NCBI RefSeq assembly: GCF_900129135.1
Contig: NZ_FQVI01000001.1
Location: 429,085 to 493,084 of the forward strand
Source: Lactonifactor longoviformis DSM 17459
Lineage (GTDB): Bacteria > Bacillota > Clostridia > Lachnospirales > Lachnospiraceae
Direction: 5' to 3'
Length of the DNA: 64,000 nt
Program-made: the position numbers and the translations under genes
Shown here: in pieces, positions 1-30,428 of the stretch
Layout: each line of letters opens with the position of its first letter
Position numbering within the stretch: position 1 is the first letter of the stretch
The notes under the pieces: generated by a model
Databases searched by the model: none
What the model was told of the DNA's origin: nothing
What the model saw: the letters and a program-made list of their open reading frames with translations, nothing else

Positions 1-3000
1 CCTTCCCCCCGTCGATGCTGCCTCCCGGCCCGTTATAGCCGGCCACTCCGCCCACACTGGAATTGTCCTCATCGGAGGAAAGCCGTACCGGTGCAGTTTT
101 GGTGCCCACCTTGCTGATGACAATTGCCCCTGTATTTCTGCCTGCGATGCCTCCGATGTAATTCTCCGGCTGTCCCCCTATAATGGCAAGCTCTGCCTGG
201 CTTAAGAGACTGCAGTTTTCAATACTTCCGCGGTTGGAGGCGGCGATTCCTCCCAGAACCCCCTGACCCGACAGAGTTCCGCCGAGAGTTCTGCATCCGG
301 TAAGCGTCCCGCGGTTCTCTCCGCAGATGCCCCCGGCCTCTCCGTTTGTGGCAGTGATCTCCCCGCTGTTTTCCGAAGCCTCTACACTGCCCTGGTTGTC
401 ACAGACAATCCCCCCTGCATTTCCCTTTTCCGCGATGATACTGCCCGCGTTTCCGGTGCCGGAGATATTTCCTGTGCTGCTTTGCAGGCCGGCGATTCCG
501 CCGGCATTTCCCTCCAGGGCCCTTACCGTAAATGTATTCTCCAGAAGTCCGCCGGAGGCATAGATGTCCCCTCCGTTAGCTCCGGCAATTCCGCCCACAT
601 CCGCCCCTCCGGTAATGGTTCCGGTCTGGGCAGCCTCCTGCTTTTTCTCAAGGCTGATAATGGCTCCTTTTTCGTTGCTTCCCGCGATTCCGCCCACATA
701 GCTTCCCGCGCCTTCGATATCTCCTTTGATCTCCCAGCCTGTAATGCCGGCCTTGTCACCGCTGTTCACCGCGGCGATCCCGCCGATATAGCTGCCGTCT
801 CCCATCACCGAAGACGCCTGCGCATCGTCGGGGAGCACACGGCAGGAGACAACCTCCCCCTCGTTTTGGCATACAATGCCGCCCACATAGGAGTCTCCCC
901 GCATCTGCCCGGTCAGGGTGCAGTTTTCGATCCGGCCGCCTTTATTAAGCCCTGCGATTCCCCCAAGGAAGGATTCCCCGGTCATAGAGCCAACGGTACA
1001 GTTCTGAATCGTTCCCTGATTTACCTCCACGATCCCGCCGGTGTAGGTACCCTGTCCCCGCACGATTCCTTTGTCTGTATTTCTGCAGTCATCAATGGTA
1101 ACCCGCCGGGAGGCTATCCCTATTATCCCGCCGGCATAGGAGAAGGTCTCCGTTTGGGAGAGTTCCTGATTTTCAGTAACCCCATAGGCGTATACCGGGG
1201 TATTGTTCTGGATGCCTTTGAGAAGAAGACTGGTGCTGCCGGCATTATAGCCCACTACACCGCCCGCATAGAGCTCAGCCTCAACAGATTTTAATGTATT
1301 CTGATTTCCTCCTCTGCCGTCCTCTTCGTTGTACATCTCTAACACAGCATCTGTATAAGAAGCAGCTGACAGTTCGTTGGCCAGCACTTCACCGGTCATT
1401 CCCGGAACATCCCCGGCATGCCGGTCAGCTATGGCACAGTAGAGAGCAGCTGTTTTCTCTGCCTCCTCCCCGGTTGCCACAAGCTGGGTATAACCCGCAT
1501 ATCCCCCTGCAAAAGCCCCTGCTTCTGCCCGTATGCTTCCCAGGAAATTGTCTGTCCCGCAGTCAATGGCAATCCTTTTTTCCTCATAGGCGGCGATAAT
1601 ATTCCCTCCGAACACGCCTCCCACAAAATAGGCGCCCTCCACCGCATTAGGATTGGAGTCAATTCTATGGCTGCCCTCTGTGAAAATATCTGTCCCTGTG
1701 TTCAGGCCCACATATCCGCCCACAAAGCAGCTGCCGCTGATGTATCCCCCCGCAAGGGTATAACCCCGTATGCTGGCATTTTCGCCGGTATCCCCTGCCC
1801 GGTTATACCCTGCGATTCCGCCCACATAGTTATGGCCGGCCGCTACACTAGTCACCCTTGTGCCGTCCTTGCTTCGTATGGTTCCTTCATTATAACCGGC
1901 GATTCCACCGATATAATCTCCATTTTTCCCAAGCTTTTCCGTCCTGGCAAGGAGCTCTTCCCCATCCTGGGACAGGGTGTTCACACTGCTGGTGCAGTCG
2001 AGAATCCTTCCGCCGTTATATCCGGCAATGCCGCCTCCGAAGGCTGCTGTGGCCACAACAATCCCTTCATTGGTCCAGTTTTCCACCGTTTTTTCTTTCT
2101 TGCCGTCCTTTGATACCGTGCCCGCTTCCGCGTCCAGAATCCCGTTGGCGCCCACAATTCCGCCCACATAGGATTCCCCCAGAACGTTTGCCTGGTTCGC
2201 CTGCCGGCTGCCGTCCAGTCTGCTGTCCTCCGTAAATCCGGCGATCCCGCCCACAAAACGTTTCCCGACTACAAAAGCGTCGGTTATCTTATTATGTATA
2301 TCACGGTTGCTCGTCTTGCAGCCGGTGATGGTGCTGTCTTTGGAGTATCCCACGATTCCGCCCACAAAATCTCCAAACAGATCCGCAGGCTTCTCCTCTT
2401 CATACTTCACGGCTGCCGAAGGGGTGCTGACACAGTTCTTTAAGATTCCGCCGTCGCTGTATCCCGTGATGCCTCCTATGTATTTGCCGGAGACTGCGCT
2501 GGCTGTGACACCCCCGTAATTCCTGCAGGTATCCAGAGTATCCCCTGCAGGTTTCTTATCATCCTCCCCCGCAGTCCTTCCAATGCTTCCGATCACCCCG
2601 CCTACCCGAAGCTCTCCGGACACGTGGGCCTGGTTGGTCAGGTTTTTGTAGACCGCATCCTTTTCTCCTGTTCGGATTCCGATGAGACCACCCACATCTG
2701 TGGTCCCTGTCACGGAACCGCTGACCGTGCAGTCGGAAATACTGCCCTTATCGCTGCCGCAGAGCGCGCCCACACAGCTGTCTCCCTCTGCCTTCACTTC
2801 CAACAGAGTGGCCGCCTGTATGGTTCCTTCATTCACGGCAAACAGCCCCAGAGGTTCTATTACCTGAGGAGCTTTGTCTTTCTCCCTGTTCTGAAGATCT
2901 GCCTTCAGAATCAGATTCTCAATAGTATATTTTGTATTGCCGCTCTTTCCTGTGTAAGCGGATCCCTCCGTTAATTTCCGGATGGGCGGAAAAGCTGTCT

Positions 3001-4363
3001 CATTTATCTCTTGTTCCGAAGACAATACAACGCCCTTTCGGTAGACATGCCCCCGGCTGAGAACACTGTTTTCCCCGCTCCACCGGACAGTTCCGGTCTG
3101 TGTATAAATAATCTTGTCTGTATCCTTTTTCCTGCCTGCAAGAGCCTCCCGTTCCTTCTCTGAGAATCTTATATTATAGAGATGTCTTGCATTTTTCACG
3201 CCATAGACTGTCTGGTCCCCGTTTTGGGCGGCAGATGCAAAGGTGGTGCAGGTGCTGTTGCTCTGTTTCCAGGCGCTGGCTTTGTAATTCTTGGCAAAAG
3301 CTTTGATTCTCGCATATATGGTTTTCTCCTGAAGACCCAATCGGATGACGCTCAGGGTATCCTTCAACTCATCCGCAGATGTTTTTTCCACAGCCGCCAG
3401 GTCTACGGCATCCAGAACCAGAGTGAGCCTGCTCCCCTCCCCGTAAGCATAGAAAGGACAGTCTTCCATCACGGTATGGCCTTCTTCTTTCCCGTCCGCT
3501 CCATAGCTGTAAAGAGTAACATCACAGTAAATCTTATTCCCCAGATCCGAACCTTTTTTCAGAATCTTATTCTTATCCTCTGTATTCACTTCCATGGTGG
3601 CCTGAAGCTTTTTCGACTCTTTGTCGTACAGCTTAATGGAATAGTTCAGATACTCGGTCAGTGCAAAATACTCCTTTTTCAGATGCCAGTTCAGGCTCAG
3701 TTCTTCGTCGTTTATCAGCTCCGCTTCCTGAAGCTCGGGTTTGCCCAGAGCACCCGGGGACTGTTCGGACATTTCATCTGAAGAATAGTAACCAATCATC
3801 CGCTCTTTGCGGATGCTGCGGGTACGGCTGCTGATATTCACACTTCCACGGTCTTCTTTCGTGTTCTCGCCCTTCTGATAGTAAAACTCGTCTGCATAGT
3901 CACTGTAGCAGACCGAATAGACAAGGCCCTCTGCGGGATCGAATTCCACAGTAATAGCCGCGTCAAGTACAGATTCATCATAGATATAAGGCTCCAGCAG
4001 TTCATACAGCAGATTGGTCTCAGCGCTCCCGGGAACTAAGGACAGGTAATACAGACGACCGTCATACTCCTCGGGCAGATCCTCCACCATAGAGCTGTCT
4101 ACTGTCTGATTCTTTCCGGCTCCCTGTGTCATATACTCCTGAAGTTCCTTCAGCTGCCCGGTAGACTTATAGTGATTCAGGGAAGAAGATGCCGCGTAAA
4201 AAATTGTCTGGGCATAGTTATTATTGCGCACAAAGGCAGAATGGCGCAGATACGCCGATAAGCCTAAGCCCGCAATCGTCAGTAAAATTCCTAATATGGT
4301 AAGTGTTACAATCGCTTCCACCAGAGTGAAGCCTTTGTTCTTATTCTTTTTATTTCCGGCCAT
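1..4363 (-). CDS. Giant prepilin-leader protein with GLUG-like repeats (C-terminus beyond window)
   Basis: A minus-strand reading frame starts with ATG at 4363 and stays open to the window edge, giving about 1454 visible residues. Residues 1-35 are a type IV prepilin leader: basic stretch, G|FTLVEA cleavage/methylation site and a hydrophobic helix. Residues about 40-480 have no recognised domain. From about residue 500 onward there are roughly 27 glycine-rich repeats of the form [YF]VGGI[AV]GYN, spaced irregularly by 25-60 residues, which resemble the GLUG motif of surface adhesins and IgA-peptidase-like proteins. The product should be processed by a prepilin peptidase and displayed as a pseudopilin-anchored fibre or adhesin (inference). 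The ribosome binding site is weak. A hairpin at 4399-4440 lies in the leader. The stop codon is not in view, so total size is unknown. Confidence 0.85.
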   Translation of the reverse strand, partial: MAGNKKNKNKGFTLVEAIVTLTILGILLTIAGLGLSAYLRHSAFVRNNNYAQTIFYAASSSLNHYKSTGQLKELQEYMTQGAGKNQTVDSSMVEDLPEEYDGRLYYLSLVPGSAETNLLYELLEPYIYDESVLDAAITVEFDPAEGLVYSVCYSDYADEFYYQKGENTKEDRGSVNISSRTRSIRKERMIGYYSSDEMSEQSPGALGKPELQEAELINDEELSLNWHLKKEYFALTEYLNYSIKLYDKESKKLQATMEVNTEDKNKILKKGSDLGNKIYCDVTLYSYGADGKEEGHTVMEDCPFYAYGEGSRLTLVLDAVDLAAVEKTSADELKDTLSVIRLGLQEKTIYARIKAFAKNYKASAWKQSNSTCTTFASAAQNGDQTVYGVKNARHLYNIRFSEKEREALAGRKKDTDKIIYTQTGTVRWSGENSVLSRGHVYRKGVVLSSEQEINETAFPPIRKLTEGSAYTGKSGNTKYTIENLILKADLQNREKDKAPQVIEPLGLFAVNEGTIQAATLLEVKAEGDSCVGALCGSDKGSISDCTVSGSVTGTTDVGGLIGIRTGEKDAVYKNLTNQAHVSGELRVGGVIGSIGRTAGEDDKKPAGDTLDTCRNYGGVTASAVSGKYIGGITGYSDGGILKNCVSTPSAAVKYEEEKPADLFGDFVGGIVGYSKDSTITGCKTSNRDIHNKITDAFVVGKRFVGGIAGFTEDSRLDGSRQANQANVLGESYVGGIVGANGILDAEAGTVSKDGKKEKTVENWTNEGIVVATAAFGGGIAGYNGGRILDCTSSVNTLSQDGEELLARTEKLGKNGDYIGGIAGYNEGTIRSKDGTRVTSVAAGHNYVGGIAGYNRAGDTGENASIRGYTLAGGYISGSCFVGGYVGLNTGTDIFTEGSHRIDSNPNAVEGAYFVGGVFGGNIIAAYEEKRIAIDCGTDNFLGSIRAEAGAFAGGYAGYTQLVATGEEAEKTAALYCAIADRHAGDVPGMTGEVLANELSAASYTDAVLEMYNEEDGRGGNQNTLKSVEAELYAGGVVGYNAGSTSLLLKGIQNNTPVYAYGVTENQELSQTETFSYAGGIIGIASRRVTIDDCRNTDKGIVRGQGTYTGGIVEVNQGTIQNCTVGSMTGESFLGGIAGLNKGGRIENCTLTGQMRGDSYVGGIVCQNEGEVVSCRVLPDDAQASSVMGDGSYIGGIAAVNSGDKAGITGWEIKGDIEGAGSYVGGIAGSNEKGAIISLEKKQEAAQTGTITGGADVGGIAGANGGDIYASGGLLENTFTVRALEGNAGGIAGLQSSTGNISGTGNAGSIIAEKGNAGGIVCDNQGSVEASENSGEITATNGEAGGICGENRGTLTGCRTLGGTLSGQGVLGGIAASNRGSIENCSLLSQAELAIIGGQPENYIGGIAGRNTGAIVISKVGTKTAPVRLSSDEDNSSVGGVAGYNGPGGSIDGGK

Positions 4364-4440: not shown

Positions 4441-4541
4441 TGTCAGATAAATTACTTATTTCTTAGTCTTTAAATTTTATCATATTTATCCAGTTTCGTA
4501 AATGTAAAATATGAGAATCGGCATGTAAAGTTCTGGATCTT

Positions 4542-17754: not shown

Positions 17755-18570
17755 TTACTTTACTAACTGATACCCCTTCTCCTGCAGCATCTTGTCTGCC
17801 TCCTCATAAGACCCCACAGTGCTAAGCCAGGAGATAGACTTGCCGTACGGTTTCTCCTTTACCCCCTCGGGCAGCTCATATACCTTTCCGTCTACATACA
17901 TAAGAGCTCCCCTCCACTGGGCGTGGGTAGCGGAATTCTCGTTGGTGGCATACATGACCATAGTACCGTCGTTCAGATAATAGGGCCTCCAGTACATCTC
18001 TTTTCCGCCCTCGTAGGCAGTGCCTTTGGTAAACTGAGAGGACACTTTCAGCAGAGATCCCCGTTTATTGTAAAGATCCTCGATCAGGTCCTTCCTATCG
18101 TTATATTTGCTTCCATCCGCCAGTTTTCCATCATAAAAATTCTTGGCAAGCGCCAGATATCCGCCTAAGGAGGTCTCATTACAGGGACAGATAAAGTCTA
18201 TATTCATCTTTCCATCTGCTTCTACAAAAAAGTCTATATCGTATTTTTGATGATATACCGGACATTCTGTGTCTTCCTCCTCACAGTACCCGTGCTCCAC
18301 CATATACCCCAGAATATCCTGCCCCGCCGCCTGCTTCAGCTCTACAATATCTGTGCAGTCTCTCAGGGCATCCTCCCCCGCATAGGCAGCCTTAAAATAC
18401 CGCTGCATGCTGCTCCGGCGCACCTCACAGCTTCTCGTCTTCGCTTTGCTTATGTATCCGGTGAGCGCCGGGATTAAAATAGCCATGAGGATTCCTATAA
18501 TCACAAGCACAACAATAACTTCTACTAAAGTAAACCCTTTTTTCTTCTGTTCTCTTCTGTGTTCCTTCAT
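17755..18570 (-). CDS. Type IV prepilin-like protein, 271 aa
   Basis: The true start is the ATG at 18570 behind CAGGAGAC; the frame extends further upstream without support. Residues 1-40 are a class prepilin leader: basic, then G|FTLVEVIVVLVIIGILMAI. The remaining mature domain has cysteines in CEEEDTEC and FICPC segments, which could form disulfides outside the membrane, and no recognised domain. At 271 residues it is longer than major pilins and may be a minor pilin or pseudopilin. It follows mocA by 19 bp, an odd pairing, and no assembly ATPase or prepilin peptidase is in the window. Confidence 0.8.
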   Translation of the reverse strand: MKEHRREQKKKGFTLVEVIVVLVIIGILMAILIPALTGYISKAKTRSCEVRRSSMQRYFKAAYAGEDALRDCTDIVELKQAAGQDILGYMVEHGYCEEEDTECPVYHQKYDIDFFVEADGKMNIDFICPCNETSLGGYLALAKNFYDGKLADGSKYNDRKDLIEDLYNKRGSLLKVSSQFTKGTAYEGGKEMYWRPYYLNDGTMVMYATNENSATHAQWRGALMYVDGKVYELPEGVKEKPYGKSISWLSTVGSYEEADKMLQEKGYQLVK

Positions 18571-18589
18571 CTCTGTGTCTCCTGACAGC

Positions 18590-19198
18590 TTAATCCATCT
18601 TCTCATCGCCAGACTCCTCTTTTTGATCCACATCCTCCAGCTCCCGGGGATCGGCAATGGGGTAATAGAAAATATCCCGGGGATGCCTTCTCATAACCTG
18701 TTTGCCTCCCACATCGCCGGAGAGGTTCATCAGCTCATCTGCATACATTTCATGGAATATCACGGGATTCCCCGGCCTCCCGTCTGCGGACATGCACCCA
18801 ATCCTCTTGTCCTGGCAGGAAAATGCCTGAAAGAAATCCTCCACACTCTTCTTTTGAAGATAGGGCTGATCCCCCACGAAAAATGCATAATAGACTGTCT
18901 CCCCATCCGTCCCCTTTCTTTGCAAAGCATCCAGGCCAATCTGAAGGGAAGAGGAAATCCCCCGCTCACTGTGGGGATTCCAGAGCACAGGTATCCCCAT
19001 TTCTTTCAGCCCGCTTCGCACAGCCTCGTGCTGTGTCACCGCAGTCAGAGTAACCGTCCCCGCCTGTTCCCCCGCCACTGCTGAGAGAACCTCTGCCATA
19101 TAGCGGTACATAGGTTTTCCGTCTATCTTGTAAAGCAGTTTATTTTCACCAAATCTCTTGCTGAAACCAGCCATCAGCAGAATCATATGGATTTTCAT
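18590..19198 (-). CDS. mocA: MocA-like molybdenum cofactor cytidylyltransferase, 202 aa
   Basis: A MobA/MocA nucleotidyltransferase that attaches CMP (or GMP) to molybdopterin. The nucleotide-binding start MILLMAGFSKRFGENKLL and the metal site VGDQPYL are visible, followed by GRPGNPVIF, all family landmarks. The start is placed at the ATG 7 bases after GGAGG. Xanthine-dehydrogenase-family enzymes use the cytosine dinucleotide cofactor, and such an enzyme is encoded at 40-43 kb, with yqeB/yqeC. This gene therefore probably belongs functionally to that locus although it lies about 17 kb away, across the mobile-element region. Confidence 0.82.
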   Translation of the reverse strand: MKIHMILLMAGFSKRFGENKLLYKIDGKPMYRYMAEVLSAVAGEQAGTVTLTAVTQHEAVRSGLKEMGIPVLWNPHSERGISSSLQIGLDALQRKGTDGETVYYAFFVGDQPYLQKKSVEDFFQAFSCQDKRIGCMSADGRPGNPVIFHEMYADELMNLSGDVGGKQVMRRHPRDIFYYPIADPRELEDVDQKEESGDEKMD

Positions 19199-23489: not shown

Positions 23490-24139
23490 TTTTCCTTCCT
23501 CCTATTATTTTTAGGTGCATAATCCTTCATTTCCGGTATTGCGCCGCCTGCCACTGCCCAAAGATACAGACTTGCCACACTGCAATAAGGGCTGAATCGG
23601 CGACGGTATTTTTCAAACAACTTACGGTCAATTCTCCTATGATGGTATGTCATACGCAGCCCACGTTGGATTGCAAGGTCATCATAGCTGAATATATTCG
23701 GACGTTGTAAGCAAAACAGCAAAATCATTTCGGCTGTCCATACACCAATACCTTTTAATGCACTCAATTCCCGAATCGCATCTTCATCGCTCATGTGTTC
23801 CACAGCATCCAGATCAAATACACCGGTATGTACTTTTGTAGCAAAATCTGTTATATACTCTGCCTTGCAAAAGGTCATGCCATAAGACTGTAATTTTGAA
23901 ATATACACTGATAGAATTGTTTCAGCGTTTATTTCCTCTAAATCTTTTTGCATTCGCTGCCAGATTGTTGCCTGTGCTTTTGTAGAAATCTGTTGACCAA
24001 TAATATGATGGATAACCGAAGAAAATAAATCTGTATCCGTTTCTCTTTTAATCAAACCAATTTTCTCAATTACTTCAGCAAGTTTTCTATCCTTATTTTT
24101 GAGATATAAAATTTCATTTTCTCCATATTCAAAATACAT
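23486..24139 (-). CDS. DNA-3-methyladenine glycosylase (AlkA/HhH-GPD), 217 aa
   Basis: A base-excision repair glycosylase for alkylated purines. The helix-hairpin-helix LKGIGVWTAEM (about residues 123-133) and the catalytic aspartate in YDDLAIQRG are visible. The length matches short AlkA proteins without the N-terminal TBP-like domain. It is the first gene of the minus-strand operon and faces an AraC-family regulator across a 132-bp spacer. Confidence 0.9.
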   Translation of the reverse strand: MYFEYGENEILYLKNKDRKLAEVIEKIGLIKRETDTDLFSSVIHHIIGQQISTKAQATIWQRMQKDLEEINAETILSVYISKLQSYGMTFCKAEYITDFATKVHTGVFDLDAVEHMSDEDAIRELSALKGIGVWTAEMILLFCLQRPNIFSYDDLAIQRGLRMTYHHRRIDRKLFEKYRRRFSPYCSVASLYLWAVAGGAIPEMKDYAPKNNRRKEN

Positions 24140-24200
24140 ATTCCACCTCTAAACTGCTTATTGTATCTCTTTGTTCCCTATGCTATAATTATATCGCAAT

Positions 24201-24235
24201 TTATCTGATGTGATTATCAAATTATATCCAGATAA
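24201..24235. promoter_or_regulatory. Inverted repeat in the AlkA/AraC divergent spacer
   Basis: TTATCTG (24201-24207) and CAGATAA (24229-24235) form a spaced dyad in AT-rich sequence between the divergent alkA-like and AraC-family genes. TATAAT-like hexamers flank it (for example 24184-24189). Binding of the adjacent AraC regulator is a reasonable inference. Confidence 0.4.
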
Positions 24236-24271
24236 TATAATAAAATCGTCAAGATAAGCAGAGGTGTATCC

Positions 24272-25165
24272 ATGAATCATGATAAATATATAAATTCTGT
24301 CAACCTGAACCAGAATACAAACTTTCCATATCTGGTATTAAATGTGATCAATGGAAACAGTTATCCAAGGAATCCCGGTTTTCGTGTTATGCACTGGCAT
24401 GAGGATATTCAGTTTATTTACGTTCTGGATGGAAAAATTGATGTGGTTACATTAGAAAGTCGAACGGTATTACACAAGGGAGATGGCTTTTTTATCAACA
24501 AAAATGTTGTACATTTAGTTGATAAGACTGATGCCTGTCACTATAACAGTTTTATATTTCCCGACTATTTTTTAAGATTTTATCTGGGAAGTCCTGCTGA
24601 ACAGATTGTAAGTCAGGTCATTGGACTGAAAGATTTTCCTGTTTTTCCAATTGTAAATGTAAAAGAACATATAGCTGTATTAAATACCTTGAGAAAATTA
24701 TCCTCTCTTGAACATAATAAAACTACTCTATATCCTTATGAGGTGTTGTCAACACTCTCTGTTCTTTGGTTAGAGTTTTGTCGTGCTGTCCAAATTTTTG
24801 AGAACGAAGCTCATAAAAAAAATAGCCAGATTACAAATCGAATGGCTATTTTTCTTCAATATATCGAACTTCATTACCCGGAAGATGTTACGCTGGAATC
24901 GCTCGCCGAAAGTGCAAATGTAAGTAAATCAGAATGTCTTCGCTGCTTTAAAACTACGCTTCAAACAACACCTTATAAATATTTGATAGAGTATCGTTTG
25001 TTCAAAGCGGCTGATTTACTGAAAAATACAGATAGATTGATTGAAAATATCGCCTCTGAGGTAGGATTTCATCATGTCAGCCACTTTGGAAAATGTTTTC
25101 GTGAAAAAACTGGTTTTTCGCCAAGTGAATATCGAGAGAATTTTTATTTCATGCTAAAACAATAA
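24272..25165 (+). CDS. AraC-family transcriptional regulator, 297 aa
   Basis: The N-terminal cupin-like sensing domain contains MHWHEDIQFIYVLDG (about residues 34-48). The C-terminal two helix-turn-helix units are complete, ending with IASEVGFHHVSHFGKCFREKTGFSPSEYR. It is divergent from the AlkA-decarboxylase-ABM-ogt-methyltransferase operon and is its likely local regulator. It lacks the methyl-accepting cysteine domain of Ada. The cupin suggests a small-molecule effector rather than direct damage sensing. Confidence 0.88.
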   Translation: MNHDKYINSVNLNQNTNFPYLVLNVINGNSYPRNPGFRVMHWHEDIQFIYVLDGKIDVVTLESRTVLHKGDGFFINKNVVHLVDKTDACHYNSFIFPDYFLRFYLGSPAEQIVSQVIGLKDFPVFPIVNVKEHIAVLNTLRKLSSLEHNKTTLYPYEVLSTLSVLWLEFCRAVQIFENEAHKKNSQITNRMAIFLQYIELHYPEDVTLESLAESANVSKSECLRCFKTTLQTTPYKYLIEYRLFKAADLLKNTDRLIENIASEVGFHHVSHFGKCFREKTGFSPSEYRENFYFMLKQ

Positions 25166-25291
25166 CTAATAATATCCCCTTGTTTCCCGCCAGCCTTTCA
25201 CATACCATCTGATTACAACATACACCAGTTGTACGAATAACAAGAAAAATAGCAGATTAAGTATCACCATTACGGTAATCATATCCCAGTA

Positions 25292-25852
25292 TTATTTCTT
25301 ATATAGCCCTGCAATCTTTATTCCGATGAATGCCAAAAGTATTCCCACACCCACCAGACATCCACCGCAAATCAATATTCTTATTAGCCAGTATATAATT
25401 CCGGCAACGACAGGATTAGATATTCCATCACTAATCTGTGCTACATTCTTCCCTGCCAGTATAATCCACCCTGTAATGTGCTGTATAAAAGCTGCGATTG
25501 TATCAAAGAATATTACACAATCAGAGATAAATATTTTTGACCATATCATCTGGAAAAGAGTAGTTAATACGGAATACCATATCAGCAGAAACATCAATGC
25601 TTCGTATAGAGCTGTTTTTGCTTTATATCTGTCTGCCAGTTTTTCTCTCTGCGTATCATACTTTTCCTTAGCTTTCAGATAAGCTGTCTGGTTACAATTC
25701 CCACACTTTTTGTATATTCCGTCAGATGTAATCCATCTGCACGGGATAATTGAACCACTATCACGGTGATACAGGACCGCCTTCACGGAAGGTGTACCAC
25801 TCACATAAATATTTCCTATAACGAAATTGGCACACATCAGTGTGACTATCAT
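25292..25852 (-). CDS. Membrane protein of mobile elements (DUF6040-like), 5' end disturbed
   Basis: Up to 186 residues with a CGNCNQTAYLKAKEKY motif, a charged helix, then two or three hydrophobic segments near residues 85-110, 115-140 and 150-185. This pattern resembles DUF6040-type membrane proteins of Firmicute integrative elements (recollection only). The first 30-40 residues are encoded by what looks like the left flank of the IS21 copy, so the natural N-terminus was probably cut off by that insertion. Function unknown. Confidence 0.5.
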   Translation of the reverse strand: MIVTLMCANFVIGNIYVSGTPSVKAVLYHRDSGSIIPCRWITSDGIYKKCGNCNQTAYLKAKEKYDTQREKLADRYKAKTALYEALMFLLIWYSVLTTLFQMIWSKIFISDCVIFFDTIAAFIQHITGWIILAGKNVAQISDGISNPVVAGIIYWLIRILICGGCLVGVGILLAFIGIKIAGLYKK

Positions 25853-25871
25853 TCATAGGAGGACGATAATT

Positions 25872-26186
25872 ATGGTTAATTATCGCGAAATACTAAGGCT
25901 GACAAGCCTTGGCTACACACAGCGTCAAATTGCTGCGAGTGTTCACAGTTCCAGAAGTACCATTAGTGAAGTACAGGAATTGGCAAGAAAAGCAGATTTA
26001 TCCTTTCCACTTGATGAATCTGTTACCAACGAAGTACTGTTGATGACCTTCCATCCGGAACGTCTCACAGCAACTAATCCAAGGGTGGAACCTGATTACA
26101 GTTTTATTCACAAGGAATTAGCAAAACCAGCTGTAACCTTGAGTCTGCTCTGGACGGAGTATGATGAAATAGTGTTTGACCCGTAA
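25872..26186 (+). pseudogene. istA: IS21-family transposase IstA, N-terminal fragment
   Basis: The start MVNYREILRLTSLGYTQRQI and the helix-turn-helix SSRSTISEVQEL are the IstA DNA-binding domain. The frame ends after 104 residues, where an unrelated block with tyrosine-recombinase remains begins. The C-terminal part of the same gene family resumes at about 27.6 kb in the same orientation. GGAGG lies upstream of the ATG. Confidence 0.85.
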
Positions 26187-26243
26187 TTATGCTGTTTCAT
26201 TAAGTACGACATAAAATAACGCTGGACATAAAAGGAGAAGTTT

Positions 26244-27223
26244 TCACTCATTGGTCACCTCCGGGAATATACTCCCCAAGGAGGATTCTTTCTGGATAAA
26301 GTCCTTATACCCCTGTTCCGTGAAATGAATGTACTTTTCCGTATCCATGTAATTTACATGGCCAACATATGCAGCCAGTATCGGAATGGCAGCATAGATA
26401 TTCATTCCGCTATCCAGCATTTTCTCCAGACTCCTGGTACAGAACGTATGCCGGATAGAGTGGATTTTTGGCGTCTTGCCATCTGCCATGTATATATCAG
26501 CCGCCTTAAACATCTTTGGGAACATATATTTCATAGCGTCATATGTAAGATGGCCACCGGTATAAGAAGAAATAAAAAAGGCTTGTTCTCATCAGACATG
26601 TCAATGATTTCAGCATAGCTGCAGAGAACCTTTTTAAGGCTGGCAGATACAGGAATATATCTTGAAACACCATTTTTTCCATTGATTACCTTAATCACGC
26701 CATTTGAGGGATCAACATCACCCCGTGTCAGTGCAAGAACTTCTCCTATACGCATCCCAGTACCTATAAGCATTCTTACCAGCACCGGATAAGTCTGCTG
26801 ATGAGCCTTGAATCTCCTTGCCGGAGGGAGCGTATCGGCCGCGCCAACTAAACGTTGTAATTCTTCATCGCTGAAAATATAAGGGCGGAATTCACATCTG
26901 ACTGTACGCATATATTTTGATGGAACCACGAATGCGTCAACTCCGAGAAGCACTAGGAAAGAACAAAACTGCCGGAGATTTGATGTCATGTATTGACGCT
27001 CGATTTCGCTTAATCCATCATGTGGAGCCAATAATTCCTGTATCATCTGTTCAGATATCTGATGTGTTTGATATCTGTTAAGTGAATTATTCAGCTTCCT
27101 TAAATGAATCAATGTTGAGCTGGCAACCTTTTCGCCTTTTCCGCGCTTAAACTCTATGAACTTTTCAAAGTACGGCTTGAAGAAACCTTCCTCGAATTTA
27201 AGAAACTCCTTGTCGTTGATCAT
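26244..27223 (-). pseudogene. Tyrosine recombinase with a one-base frameshift
   Basis: Two overlapping frames (26531-27223 and 26244-26534) form one phage-type integrase. The first carries the core-binding domain and the first catalytic arginine (GTGMRIGEVLALT). The second has HSIRHTF and a late HV...Y region. The switch falls in a run of six T's on the coding strand (26573-26578). Adding one T restores SSYTGGHLTYDAMKY across the junction. The gene is therefore inactive unless slippage occurs. It lies inside the interrupted IS21 copy. Confidence 0.85.
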
Positions 27224-27552
27224 TTTTCGGGCACCTCCAATGCTGTTATTATGAGGCGATCGATATCAGACCAGACGTATGTCTTCGTAGAGGCTGCGGA
27301 TGTGTGCCCGAGGATCACGGCAATCTCATTTACCGGGGTACCCGATTCAAAAAGGTTTGTAGCCAGACTATGTCTGAGCGAGTGCAGACCATGATGCTTT
27401 CCTTTTGTGTCTACGCCTGCACTCTCAAAGTATGGTAAGATCTTATTTCCAAAATGGTCATCCATCGAATATGGAATATGCGGTTTTCTAAGTCGGGTGA
27501 ATACATTAGGGCTGTTTACTTCCGGGCGCGCATTTTTGATATAGTCAAGCAA
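27220..27552 (-). pseudogene. Second tyrosine recombinase, C-terminal fragment
   Basis: The C-terminal catalytic half of an integrase: LHSLRHSLATNLFESG with the His-x-x-Arg pair, ILGHTS with the histidine, and KTYVW with the nucleophilic tyrosine. Homology appears to continue upstream in the same frame to about 27595 (SLPITDEVLFALL) and then stops at the IS21 sequence. Its end overlaps the next recombinase start by 4 bp, so two recombinases were once coupled, as in paired or triplet recombinase modules. Confidence 0.8.
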
Positions 27553-27608
27553 CGCAAACAGAACCTCATCCGTAATAGGAAGGGAGTCGAGAGATCTTTA
27601 CCACTCAC

Positions 27609-28025
27609 ATACCGCTGGCTGCCCAAAGAGAACCAGTCATTCAGGCAGAACATATGCCACAGAATCATCAGAAATATCTGAGTCGGAACGAAGATGAATT
27701 TCGTTCCTGGGCACATACTATCGGTCCTCGTACCAGTGAAGTTGTAGAGCATTTCCTTACATCAGGTGCAGCGCCGGAACAGGGATATAAGTCATGTGCA
27801 AGTCTGACAAAACTGGCTGATCGTTACGGTCACGACCGTTTAGAGAAAGCATGTGAGCGTGTACTATGCTACACATCAGATCCTGCTATTAGAAACATCA
27901 GCACCTTACTTAGAAACGGACAAGACAAAGTTTCAGTAGCCACTGTAGAGAATCCTTTCAACAGTGGCGGTATTACCCGGGGTCCGGGCTATTACAGACG
28001 AGGAGGTGCTCACAATGATCAATGA
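27609..28025 (+). pseudogene. istA: IS21-family transposase IstA, C-terminal fragment
   Basis: The frame reads EHMPQNHQKYLSRNEDEF through SCASLTKLADRYG and RLEKACERVL, typical of the IstA C-terminus. It continues the interrupted 25872-26186 gene. The exact joint with the recombinase block cannot be fixed, but is near 27600. The DDE catalytic core is missing. The stop overlaps the istB start by 11 bp, as in intact IS21 elements. Confidence 0.82.
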
Positions 28026-28371
28026 ACAGACTTGTGAAACTCTTCGAAAAATGAAACTTAATGCAATGGCCGATGAATTGACTCATCAACTGGAAGATCA
28101 GACATCTTATGGAACCCTTGGTTTTGAAGAACGTCTGGGATTAATGGTGGATGCCGAATGGAATCGCCGGCAATCAAATAAACTTGCCCGCTATATTAAA
28201 ATCGCAGATTTCTCTATTCCAAATGCGACAATTGAAGGTATCGAATATCATGAGGACCGTAAGCTTGATAAAGCAGAAATTTTACGATACGCAACCTGCA
28301 AGTACATTGATGAAGGACACCATATCATTTTTAAAGGCGCTTTCCGAAACGAGTTGTCAAGGACTTTTTAA
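28015..28371 (+). pseudogene. istB: IS21-family helper ATPase IstB, truncated
   Basis: Starts MINEQTCETLRKMKLNAMADEL, the IstB N-terminus. After about 110 residues, near KLDKAEILRYATCKYIDEG, the frame departs from the family and stops. IstB is normally about 250 residues with a Walker A motif, and here the ATPase core is gone. The right end of the IS is therefore deleted. Confidence 0.8.
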
Positions 28372-28422
28372 TCAAATTCACGAAAAAGTCACAAACAAGC
28401 GCCTCTTTTTTGCCCGGACGAG

Positions 28423-28451
28423 TTTACTTTCCCCGGCGTATGGGATATAAT
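28423..28451 (+). promoter_or_regulatory. Sigma-70 promoter of the toxin-antitoxin pair
   Basis: TTTACT (28423-28428), a 17-bp spacer and a perfect TATAAT (28446-28451) lie 54 bp before the antitoxin start, immediately after the truncated istB. Confidence 0.8.
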
Positions 28452-28504
28452 ATAAGCAGAGATAAAGAAAACTTGAGTTCTAAAGAATAGAAAGGGTGAC
28501 TTGT

Positions 28505-28762
28505 ATGAATTTGGCGAAAATCTCTGCAAACGGTCAAATCACTGTGCCGGTAGAAATCAGGCGGCAGCTTGGTCTGAAATCCGGCGATAAAATCCTGTTC
28601 CTCCAAAAGCAGAATGGAGAGATTGTTGTCAGCAACGCCTCCGCTGCGGCCATCCGAAAAGCACAGGCCACCTTTGCCGGGTCTGCTGATGCACTGGGCG
28701 TATCCAGCGAGGATGATATTCAGGCGCTTGTAGACGAAGTGCGTTATGGAAAGGGAAGGTAA
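28505..28762 (+). CDS. AbrB/SpoVT-type antitoxin, 85 aa
   Basis: A swapped-hairpin AbrB DNA-binding domain: KISANGQITVPVEIRRQLGLKSGDKILF at the N-terminus, followed by an acidic tail that should wrap the toxin. The start is the ATG at 28505 after AAAGGGTG. It ends 1 bp before the PIN toxin start, the usual arrangement of an operon whose antitoxin autoregulates the promoter at 28423. Confidence 0.88.
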   Translation: MNLAKISANGQITVPVEIRRQLGLKSGDKILFLQKQNGEIVVSNASAAAIRKAQATFAGSADALGVSSEDDIQALVDEVRYGKGR

Positions 28763-28763
28763 A

Positions 28764-29162
28764 ATGCGGATATTGGTAGACACAAACATTTTGTTTTCCG
28801 CATTGGTCTTTCCCCGTTCCAAGCCGGCGTGGGCGTTGCTCTACATCGCAGACAATCACGAAATAGTCCTGTGTGACCGCAACATCGCGGAGCTGCGGGA
28901 TATTCTCGGACGGAAAGTGCCAAAGTATCTCCCGGATGCCGAAGTGCTGCTGGCAGAGATGTCCTATGAGTTAATTCCTGCGGTAGACCATGCGGAAAAG
29001 CTGATACGCGACGCAAAAGACCAGCCGATCTTAAACGCGGCTATCGTGTCGGATGTGGATATTATCCTCACCGGCGATAAAGATTTTTTAAGTCTGGATA
29101 TGGAACATCCAAAGTGCATGACCGTCGCGCAGTTTCTCGAAAGCGAAGGCGTGGAGGATTGA
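28764..29162 (+). CDS. PIN-domain toxin (putative ribonuclease), 132 aa
   Basis: A PIN-family nuclease with the four acidic positions visible: VDTN at the start, RNIAEL, KDQPILNAAIVSDVD and TGDKDF. GGAAGG in the end of the antitoxin serves as ribosome binding site. This pairing with an AbrB-type antitoxin is the PIN family TIGR00305-like group. Both genes look intact, in contrast to their surroundings. Confidence 0.87.
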   Translation: MRILVDTNILFSALVFPRSKPAWALLYIADNHEIVLCDRNIAELRDILGRKVPKYLPDAEVLLAEMSYELIPAVDHAEKLIRDAKDQPILNAAIVSDVDIILTGDKDFLSLDMEHPKCMTVAQFLESEGVED

Positions 29163-29191
29163 CCTCTGCGCCTTTTCTCCTGGCATGGAAA

Positions 29192-29223
29192 GGGCCGGAA
29201 GCCTGTTTGAAGGTTTCCGGCCC
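29192..29223. terminator. GC-rich hairpin after the toxin gene
   Basis: GGGCCGGAAGCC (29192-29203) pairs with GGTTTCCGGCCC (29212-29223), 12 bp with one G-T pair and an 8-base loop. It lies between the PIN toxin (+) and the TnpW-like gene (-). No long T-tract follows, so termination strength is uncertain. Confidence 0.6.
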
Positions 29224-29230
29224 GCTGTGT

Positions 29231-29422
29231 TTACATCTGCTGTATCTCGTTTTTGAGCATACGCTTGATTTTGTCGCTCATGGTTTCAGTGCTGGTCTGG
29301 CTGAAATGGACGCGCACCTTGTAGGTGGTCTTGCCGATTTTCTTTACCAGCGCGGGGGCGTCCTCCGGCGCTCTGGCCGGGGGGGTGTCTACGGTCTGCA
29401 TGGTACGGGTTTCTTCGCTCAT
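29231..29422 (-). CDS. TnpW-like transposon-encoded protein, 63 aa
   Basis: A small basic protein with ALVKKIGKTTYKVRVHFSQT and a C-terminal MSDKIKRMLKNEI helix, as in the TnpW-type proteins of Clostridia mobilizable transposons. The start is the ATG at 29422 behind AAAGGAG. Its biochemical role is unknown. It is the downstream-most gene of the decayed mobilizable-element block. Confidence 0.72.
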   Translation of the reverse strand: MSEETRTMQTVDTPPARAPEDAPALVKKIGKTTYKVRVHFSQTSTETMSDKIKRMLKNEIQQM

Positions 29423-29465
29423 GGCGCTCCTTTCTCCGGGCGGGGCTGCGCCGTCCGGCAAAAAA

Positions 29466-29972
29466 TTACTCGTGCTTACGGTTTACAATGTCTTTCGCCG
29501 CCTGCTTAGTGACTCCGGCGTTTTCCTCCCGGAAGTTCTTCCCTGCAAAGAGGATCGGGGCGCACCGTTCCAGGATGCGGTCATAGATACGGGCGTGGGC
29601 CAGGTCGGGCGGGTTCTTGAGTTCGGCCAGCTTCAGGTTGGTGGTGATTATCATGGGCCTGCGGCTGCGGTAGCGGCTGTCAATGACGAAAAACATCTGC
29701 TCCATCGCATACTCGGTACTGCGCTCCACACCCAGATCGTCAATGATAAGCAGGTCGTACTCGTCAAAGCTGGCGATAAAGTCGGCCCTGTCCTCAGAAA
29801 ACATCCCCGTCAGGCGGTTCAGGATGGTGGGAAAGTTCGTCATCAGCACCGGCACATCCCGGTCAAGCAGGGCGTTGGCGATACAACCGGTGAAAAAGGA
29901 TTTGCCGGTTCCCACATCCCCGAACAGCAGCAGGCCGGTGTTGTTCCTGTATGCCTCCTTCCAGTTTTCCAC
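29466..29972 (-). pseudogene. DnaC-like ATPase, N-terminally truncated
   Basis: An AAA+ helicase-loader-type ATPase of mobile elements. Walker A is FGDVGTGKSFF and Walker B LLIIDDLGVE. The frame can begin with GTG at 29972, but intact relatives carry about 80-100 more N-terminal residues. Upstream the frame is open only to about 30030 and looks unrelated, so the DnaA/DnaC-interaction domain has been deleted. Possibly still folds as an ATPase domain. Confidence 0.78.
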
Positions 29973-30007
29973 ATAGGTACTGGCGATAGTCCATGACGGG
30001 GATGGGG

Positions 30008-30144
30008 TCAGGCTTGCTTTTCTTCATGCTGGCACTTCCCGCACCCGCCGCAGTTGCCGCAGCCCTGGCAGGCATGGGCCTCCGGCTCCGGGCCGGTGGG
30101 CGCGTCTGCCGGTTCCGGCTGCAAGAGGTCGGCAAAACGCCGTA
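30008..30144 (-). pseudogene. C-terminal tail of a replication-type protein
   Basis: The frame reads RRFADLLQPEP, then a cysteine-rich end CQGCGNCGGCGKCQHEEK and a stop at 30008. Such CxxC-rich tails occur at the C-terminus of replication-initiator or organiser proteins that precede the DnaC-like gene in related elements (recollection). The body of the gene is missing and the tail is fused to the relaxase fragment. Confidence 0.55.
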
Positions 30145-30150
30145 CCCTTT

Positions 30151-30234
30151 ACCGCTGCGGTAGGCGGCTGCGGCAACAGCGGAACGGCCCTCGCTGCGCT
30201 TGATGATACTGACGGGGATATGGCAAAAATCTAT
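30151..30234 (-). pseudogene. MobA/MobL relaxase, N-terminal scrap
   Basis: The minus strand encodes CHIPVSIIKRSEGRSAVAAAAYRSG, the signature start of MobA/MobL-type relaxases, following an AGGAGG. The expected start codon position reads ATA, not ATG. After about 28 residues the sequence jumps at 30150 into the tail of another gene, so a multi-kilobase deletion joined the two. Confidence 0.75.
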
Positions 30235-30428
30235 GGGGATCGCCTCCTTTCGGTGAGGGGTATTCAGGCCGCAGGGGACGGGACAGCCGCTTGCGGATGT
30301 TCCGTGACCTGTGGCACACAAGGGGTTTGGGGAGTGTAGCGCCCCATCGCGCTCGGAGAGCGCAACAGCCCCCGGCAGGGCGCACGACACCGGCAACGGT
30401 GTATAAGTGCCCATTCCTGAGAATGGAC

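Follow-up and report, generated by a model that had tools for sequence, protein, structure and literature searches.

Type IV pilins that carry an additional module are already known. PilB and PilC of Streptococcus sanguinis are modular pilins (Raynaud et al. 2021, PMC8179133), and the available text of that paper treats domain grafting onto minor pilins as an established theme, the most extreme multi-domain case there being an 860-residue protein with 12 repeats. Monoderm minor pilins larger than 50 kDa are noted as possible adhesins in the accessible part of PMC6916266. Here we consider a gene of Lactonifactor longoviformis DSM 17459 (Lachnospiraceae, a gut-associated family) that reaches into a 64,000-nucleotide stretch of contig NZ_FQVI01000001.1, hereafter the window (G000:C29:429085-493084 of a 4.84-Mb genome), and encodes a protein of 2,951 residues with a prepilin leader and a long array of GLUG-like repeats. 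By length, this protein is roughly six times the 50 kDa mark. It is an oversized version of the modular pilin, an idea that is not new; for that concept we follow PMC8179133, and for the logic of a tip complex the account of minor pilins in PMC10191384. We think it probable that the giant is a modular minor pilin of a type IVa-like pilus, residing in the tip complex and bearing a ligand-binding arm.

The giant gene, its pilin module and its repeats

Within the window the gene appears as a minus-strand frame at positions 2-4363, which begins with ATG, stays open for 1,454 codons and runs off the edge. It extends past the window to G000:C29:424592, and the complete gene (L007:8593-17448, minus strand) holds 2,951 codons with zero internal stops. 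A sequence-only reading of the window had proposed a pilin-tethered repeat architecture of more than 1400 residues. The gene behind that proposal is intact, with neither stop nor frameshift, and the remaining 1,497 residues, the downstream minor pilins and the rest of a pilus operon lay beyond what that reading could see.

The leader is of the class III type, as had been proposed: it is short and basic, ends in Gly and is followed by a hydrophobic helix with Glu5. The part encoded in the window matches Pfam N_methyl (E 4e-8, 32.9 bits, cut-off 21.2), and the leader also exceeds the threshold of TIGR02532 (23.9, cut-off 16.3). Cleavage is predicted after G11, so that the mature protein would begin at F12 with Glu at +5. 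By hydropathy, residues 1-33 are the only strongly hydrophobic stretch and no second membrane segment was found; the last 120 residues contain no LPxTG-like motif, and there is no C-terminal hydrophobic segment. The pilin module is thus the sole evident anchor. A sortase-anchored surface adhesin was rejected for want of a C-terminal LPxTG-type sorting signal and a hydrophobic C-terminus. The features of the window that concern the giant are as follows.

2..4363, minus strand: 5' part of the giant modular pilin gene (codons 1-1454 of 2951); open frame, continues outside the window
4265..4363, minus strand: prepilin leader, then the first part of the hydrophobic alpha-1 helix (residues 1-33); N_methyl, hydropathy, Glu5
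3764..4363, minus strand: predicted pilin module, about residues 1-200, helix 14-68 and then a beta-rich head; AlphaFold2 model, short orthologues
3224..3748, minus strand: predicted second domain, about residues 206-380, Ig/FnIII-type beta-sandwich (fold class only); model
2..2746, minus strand: GLUG array from about residue 540, continuing to about residue 1880 outside the window; Glug score, motif counts, model
4474..4529, minus strand: three sigma-70-like promoter matches, overlapping one another, before the giant gene; consensus match only

The last of these, three matches where shuffles give 0.6, mark a possible operon promoter.

The repeats of the window part match Pfam Glug at 29.7 bits (cut-off 20.5), and a loose GLUG motif occurs there 27 times, the number that had been estimated. 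In the whole protein it occurs 37 times, though two of these matches, at 871 and 2563, seem spurious. Chance repeats were rejected, since the whole protein, shuffled 1,000 times, had 2.7 motif matches on average and never more than 9. The repeats had been described as [YF]VGGI[AV]GYN; the GLUG array itself stands, but this literal motif occurs once in the giant, and the repeats are therefore looser than described. A six-frame search of the genome returned single Glug repeats at 22.8 and 22.7 bits, both inside the giant gene. Searched by sequence against PDB chains, the repeat profile had no match at E <= 0.01.

Residues 1-445 were modelled with AlphaFold2 (me2da8165d570, alignment of 23 sequences) at a mean predicted local distance difference test score (pLDDT) of 73. 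At this moderate confidence the model has the fold of a pilin, with a long N-terminal helix (14-68) packed on a beta-rich head (strands 105-109, 136-142 and 147-154), followed by a beta-sandwich at about residues 206-380. The structural matches of the sandwich are of Ig/FnIII type and unspecific, the best Z of 7.2 being a commonplace level. Residues 1095-1420 are predicted to form a beta-helix (mcdfdbc2cf818, pLDDT 88.9, predicted template modelling score 0.89, alignment of 8 sequences), in agreement with the beta-helical stack that the sequence-only reading had anticipated. The model has 41 strands in 326 residues, or an estimated 24 or so residues per coil. The rise of a beta-helix is 4.8 angstrom per coil. 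With these two values, the GLUG array of about 1,340 residues would be some 25-30 nm long. For the C-terminal region of about 1,070 residues there was no convincing Pfam match or PDB sequence match; among three such regions scanned, fn3 appeared in the Cuneatibacter homologue alone, at an E of 0.0013 and below its cut-off.

The best structural matches of the beta-helix model are 3n6z (Z 23.4) and the IgA1 proteases 7uvl, 7uvk and 6xjb (Z 20.5-22.9), so that over 243-255 residues the likeness to a beta-helix reaches Z 20.5-23.4. The regions matched are presumably GLUG repeats themselves. Further beta-helices rank below, with Z from 20.2 downward, and sugar-active ones such as AlgE4 lie at about 20. 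These matches would suit a pilus-borne enzyme, such as an M26-type peptidase or a polysaccharide-active beta-helix, in place of an adhesin. We take IPR011493 to be the GLUG motif. If this holds, the combination of pilin and GLUG is probably covered by the IPR012902-IPR011493 architecture of PMC8179133, which the available text describes as a predicted M26 peptidase and which also speaks for an enzyme. However, the giant has no Pfam M26 match at E <= 0.1 over its whole length and no HExxH in 2,951 residues, and a protease identity (M26, IgA1 protease) was rejected on these grounds. Unlike the IgA1 proteases, it is fused to a pilin and no protease domain was found in it; what the two have in common is the repeat scaffold, and so many similar coils in succession point to a spacer or a binding rod. 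We consider an enzymatic giant very unlikely. By this comparison, an 'M26 peptidase' module in the annotation of a pilin may stand for nothing more than a GLUG rod.

An integrative element inside the type IV pilus operon

Four pilin genes lie directly downstream of the giant on the same strand. The first encodes a K-like minor pilin of 207 residues without Glu5, and its gene overlaps that of the giant by 14 bp. It is followed by genes for a ComGE-like pilin (105 residues), a PilW-like pilin (207 residues) and a major-pilin-like protein (162 residues). The labels K, ComGE and PilW (K/I/J) come from weak profile matches below curated cut-offs, or from position; the K-like subunit, for instance, matches GspK at E 2.8e-4 and 20.6 bits (cut-off 130). 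With names given by such weak matches, the giant has K-, I- and J-like minor pilins alongside, as would be expected in a tip complex. A tip-capping pilus subunit without Glu5, like the K-like subunit here, is described in the accessible part of PMC10191384.

The assembly genes are found on the same strand past an integrated element, and encode a pilin-like protein of 140 residues, PilD, PilC, PilM, PilN, PilO, PilB and PilT. The peptidase has A24_N and A24 domains, PilC and PilB were matched, PilT exceeds its cut-off and PilM matches weakly; the names PilN and PilO come from position. The prepilin peptidase and assembly machinery that a functional pilin would need are thus in the same genome, and indeed in the same operon. 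The claim that no pilus assembly genes are nearby, and that the system must be encoded elsewhere, was mistaken; the operon lies just outside the window and was missed because the window ends inside the giant gene.

Two further pilin-like genes were seen. The small one before pilD (L018:9549-9971, minus strand) has no canonical prepilin motif, and its homologue at L050 has one. A lone type IV pilin open reading frame of about 300 residues (window 17755-18657, minus strand; N_methyl 40.1 bits) lies away from the pilus operon and adjoins a nucleotidyltransferase-like frame named by eye.

The element is about 32 kb long (G000:C29 ~390066-422156; L018, L019, L008 and L007) and sits between the major pilin gene and pilD. 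It encodes a Tn916-type integrase (PF02920, 1.6e-34), a coupling protein, a relaxase and a TraG-type ATPase that we read as VirB4-like; its open reading frames also include ABC-transporter-like and two-component-like genes, named by eye. The insertion lies in an intergenic gap, with a strong hairpin (z -6.9) alongside on the pilD side. Shared TACTACT motifs are bracketed by a 10-mer, TGAAAAATGC, that is likewise shared, but this may be chance and does not fix the ends of the element. At the genus level our sample consists of this genome only. Nine relatives (L050, L051, L052, L054, L055, L058, L059, L061 and L066) have no element at this place; in them the major pilin gene and pilD are no more than 1.7 kb apart, and any genes listed in the gap are small and pilin-like. 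Given that this gap is at most 1.7 kb in all nine, the genes on either side of the element belong to one type IV pilus operon, which an insertion has split in L. longoviformis. Elsewhere in the window, a low guanine-plus-cytosine stretch at 24000-30400 (0.35 at 24-26 kb) has a tyrosine-recombinase-like frame, a DnaC-like ATPase and a mobilisation-like frame, all named by eye, and is probably another mobile remnant.

An element of this size and integrase type between the major pilin and pilD could mean that the giant is a relic here: the operon is cut, the pilus is no longer made and the gene has no present function. However, the pilin and assembly genes on either side are open frames of normal length, the insertion occupies an intergenic gap beside the hairpin, and the operon has been kept in relatives. 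We find a relic unlikely.

Giant and short forms across the Lachnospiraceae

The N-terminal 505 residues were used to query 250 genomes of the family, and matched 40 of them, this genome included; in the 39 others, stretches retrieved for the match were inspected. Giants, defined as frames with a prepilin leader (recognised elsewhere by a motif script and not by Pfam) and 1,500 codons or more, number 30 genes of 1,542-7,662 residues in 28 of the 250 genomes. Eleven of the other matching genomes have only shorter frames of 153-867 residues (G044, G053, G066, G070, G073, G075, G115, G151, G161, G171 and G206). The last, G126, encodes a homologue of 1,430 residues (L063:1458-5750, phmmer 9e-97) with a different N-terminus, and was not counted as a giant, since the motif script flagged no prepilin leader there; perhaps it is the same arm on another carrier. 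GLUG-like motifs exceeded the maximum of 50 shuffles in 29 of 29 giants tested, most narrowly in G084 (5 vs 4) and G138 (4 vs 2). The thirtieth, outside the shuffle set, is a single open frame of 7,662 residues in G178 (L156:577-20000 and L157:1-3565). It has 70 GLUG-like motifs besides a prepilin leader motif, and shares its strand with matches to pilT, pilB, pilD, pilN, pilM and pilC.

The clearest view of how such a protein is put together comes from two short orthologues, of 198 and 213 residues (G151 and G171), that occupy the same operon slot before the same minor pilins and lack the graft. The one of 198 residues is 39% identical to the giant over 172 residues. From these we conclude that residues 1 to about 200 are a normal pilin and that the remainder is a graft, that is, an independent part added to a complete pilin module. 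In G183 two giants stand in tandem (L053:1602-11264, and L053:11705 to L054:1202). They are 88% identical over the first 200 residues and least alike, at 50-60%, across residues 1,600-2,400, as expected of a diversifying distal part.

A K/V/W-type minor pilin lies within 1.5 kb on the same strand at 19 of the 28 giant loci elsewhere, and at both short orthologues; in this count the first of the G183 copies was pooled with the second and the gene of the window was left aside. PilM was matched in 61 of the 250 genomes at E <= 0.001 and in 27 at E < 1e-20, a threshold chosen after seeing a gap in the match list. At this stricter threshold the pilin N-terminus is matched in 22 of the 27 PilM genomes, by giants in 20 and by the short forms in G151 and G171, with PilM on a different contig from the pilin in G027, G084 and G151. 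Of the five genomes that have no such pilin match, four differ in gene order, and in G213 the frames of pilC and pilM are interrupted.

Several observations weigh against a giant pilin in the tip complex. The H slot (GspH/FimU/ComGD) is assigned to it by position and weak profile matches, and the short orthologues likewise match GspH, ComGD or ComGE weakly, none at its curated cut-off. No pilin is among the 50 matches listed for the N-terminal model, which are mostly of Ig/FnIII or TEAD type, and at E <= 0.001 neither model had a Foldseek match in the PDB, the best for the repeats being 3n6z at 1.2e-3. Scanned at once, the full-length protein has a Glug score of 14.9 bits, under the Pfam cut-off. 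In G116 and G004 the giant comes after the minor pilins, last and not first; eight of the 28 giant-bearing genomes have no PilM match at E < 1e-20; and at nine of the 28 loci elsewhere no such minor pilin lies within 1.5 kb, these nine being weak query matches (6.6e-14 or worse). In L. longoviformis the element parts the pilins from the assembly genes, and the pilus system may in consequence be poorly expressed.

The nine loci apart from minor pilins would fit a modular pilin located in the shaft, or a stalk left in the membrane with the helix as anchor for a surface fibre, and not a tip subunit. PMC8179133 leaves room for modular pilins within the shaft, provided that their linker is flexible, and the homologue without a flagged prepilin motif suggests an arm that may function on a different carrier. 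Against this are the tight linkage to the minor pilin set at the 19 other loci and the short orthologues in the same slot. To us a shaft or stalk is a real but minor possibility, and a tip-complex minor pilin is the interpretation we develop below.

Proposed mechanism and comparison with known systems

We suspect that the prepilin peptidase of the interrupted operon cleaves the giant after Gly11. The pilin module of about 200 residues would then pack with its GspK-like (no Glu5), ComGE-like and PilW-like neighbours and be incorporated into the filament. This minor pilin complex would start the filament and end at its tip. The remaining 2,750 or so residues, comprising the beta-sandwich, the GLUG beta-helix rod and the C-terminal region of about 1,070 residues, would project as a long arm, most likely one that binds a surface ligand: mucus, a plant or fibre polysaccharide, or another cell. 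The giant is probably an adhesin, and it is a testable candidate for surface attachment in Lachnospiraceae.

If so, a folded extracellular arm of about 300 kDa (estimated from length) is borne on a pilin, and subunits of 3,000-7,600 residues test the limits of the type IV pilus in leaving the membrane, passing the peptidoglycan and joining the filament. Related genomes fill one operon slot with either a short or a giant form, which supplies the grafting model of pilus adhesins with natural examples from before and after the graft. We also put forward, tentatively, a wider picture that is possible but somewhat doubtful, in which tip-complex giants provide the type IV pili of this family with a covalent arm tens of nm long that takes, in these monoderms, the part played in other bacteria by a separate protein, PilY1, and that diversifies and duplicates distally. 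In this picture, excision of the element could reconnect the operon, making piliation element-dependent.

A description of a giant GLUG pilin was not found in the literature searched by title and opening of the abstract, with subscription journals mostly uncovered, which is weak evidence of novelty. The features that seem new are the size of the protein, its usual position within a set of minor pilins, the pairing of short with giant forms and the interruption of the operon. The architecture had been called unusual from the sequence. This is true of its size and less so of its plan, given that grafting is established in the available text of PMC8179133 and that relatives of the giant recur in the same family.

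Like S. sanguinis PilB and PilC as presented in the accessible part of PMC8179133, the giant has a C-terminal module on a pilin module, belongs to a monoderm type IV pilus and is proposed to act in adhesion at the tip. Processed PilB has 454 residues there and one vWA module, whereas the giant has 2,951 and a predicted beta-helix rod. Unlike the S. sanguinis case, K-, I- and J-like minor pilins (weak matches) are all encoded beside it. The IPR012902-IPR011493 pilins of the same paper are read in its available text as M26 peptidases, and in this the giant differs, with neither an M26 domain nor HExxH. Finally, PilC/PilY1 of diderm type IVa pili, in the available text of PMC10191384, is a large modular effector at the tip together with HIJK minor pilins, much as we suspect for the giant. 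However, PilY1 is not a pilin, whereas the giant has its large arm covalently built into a minor pilin.

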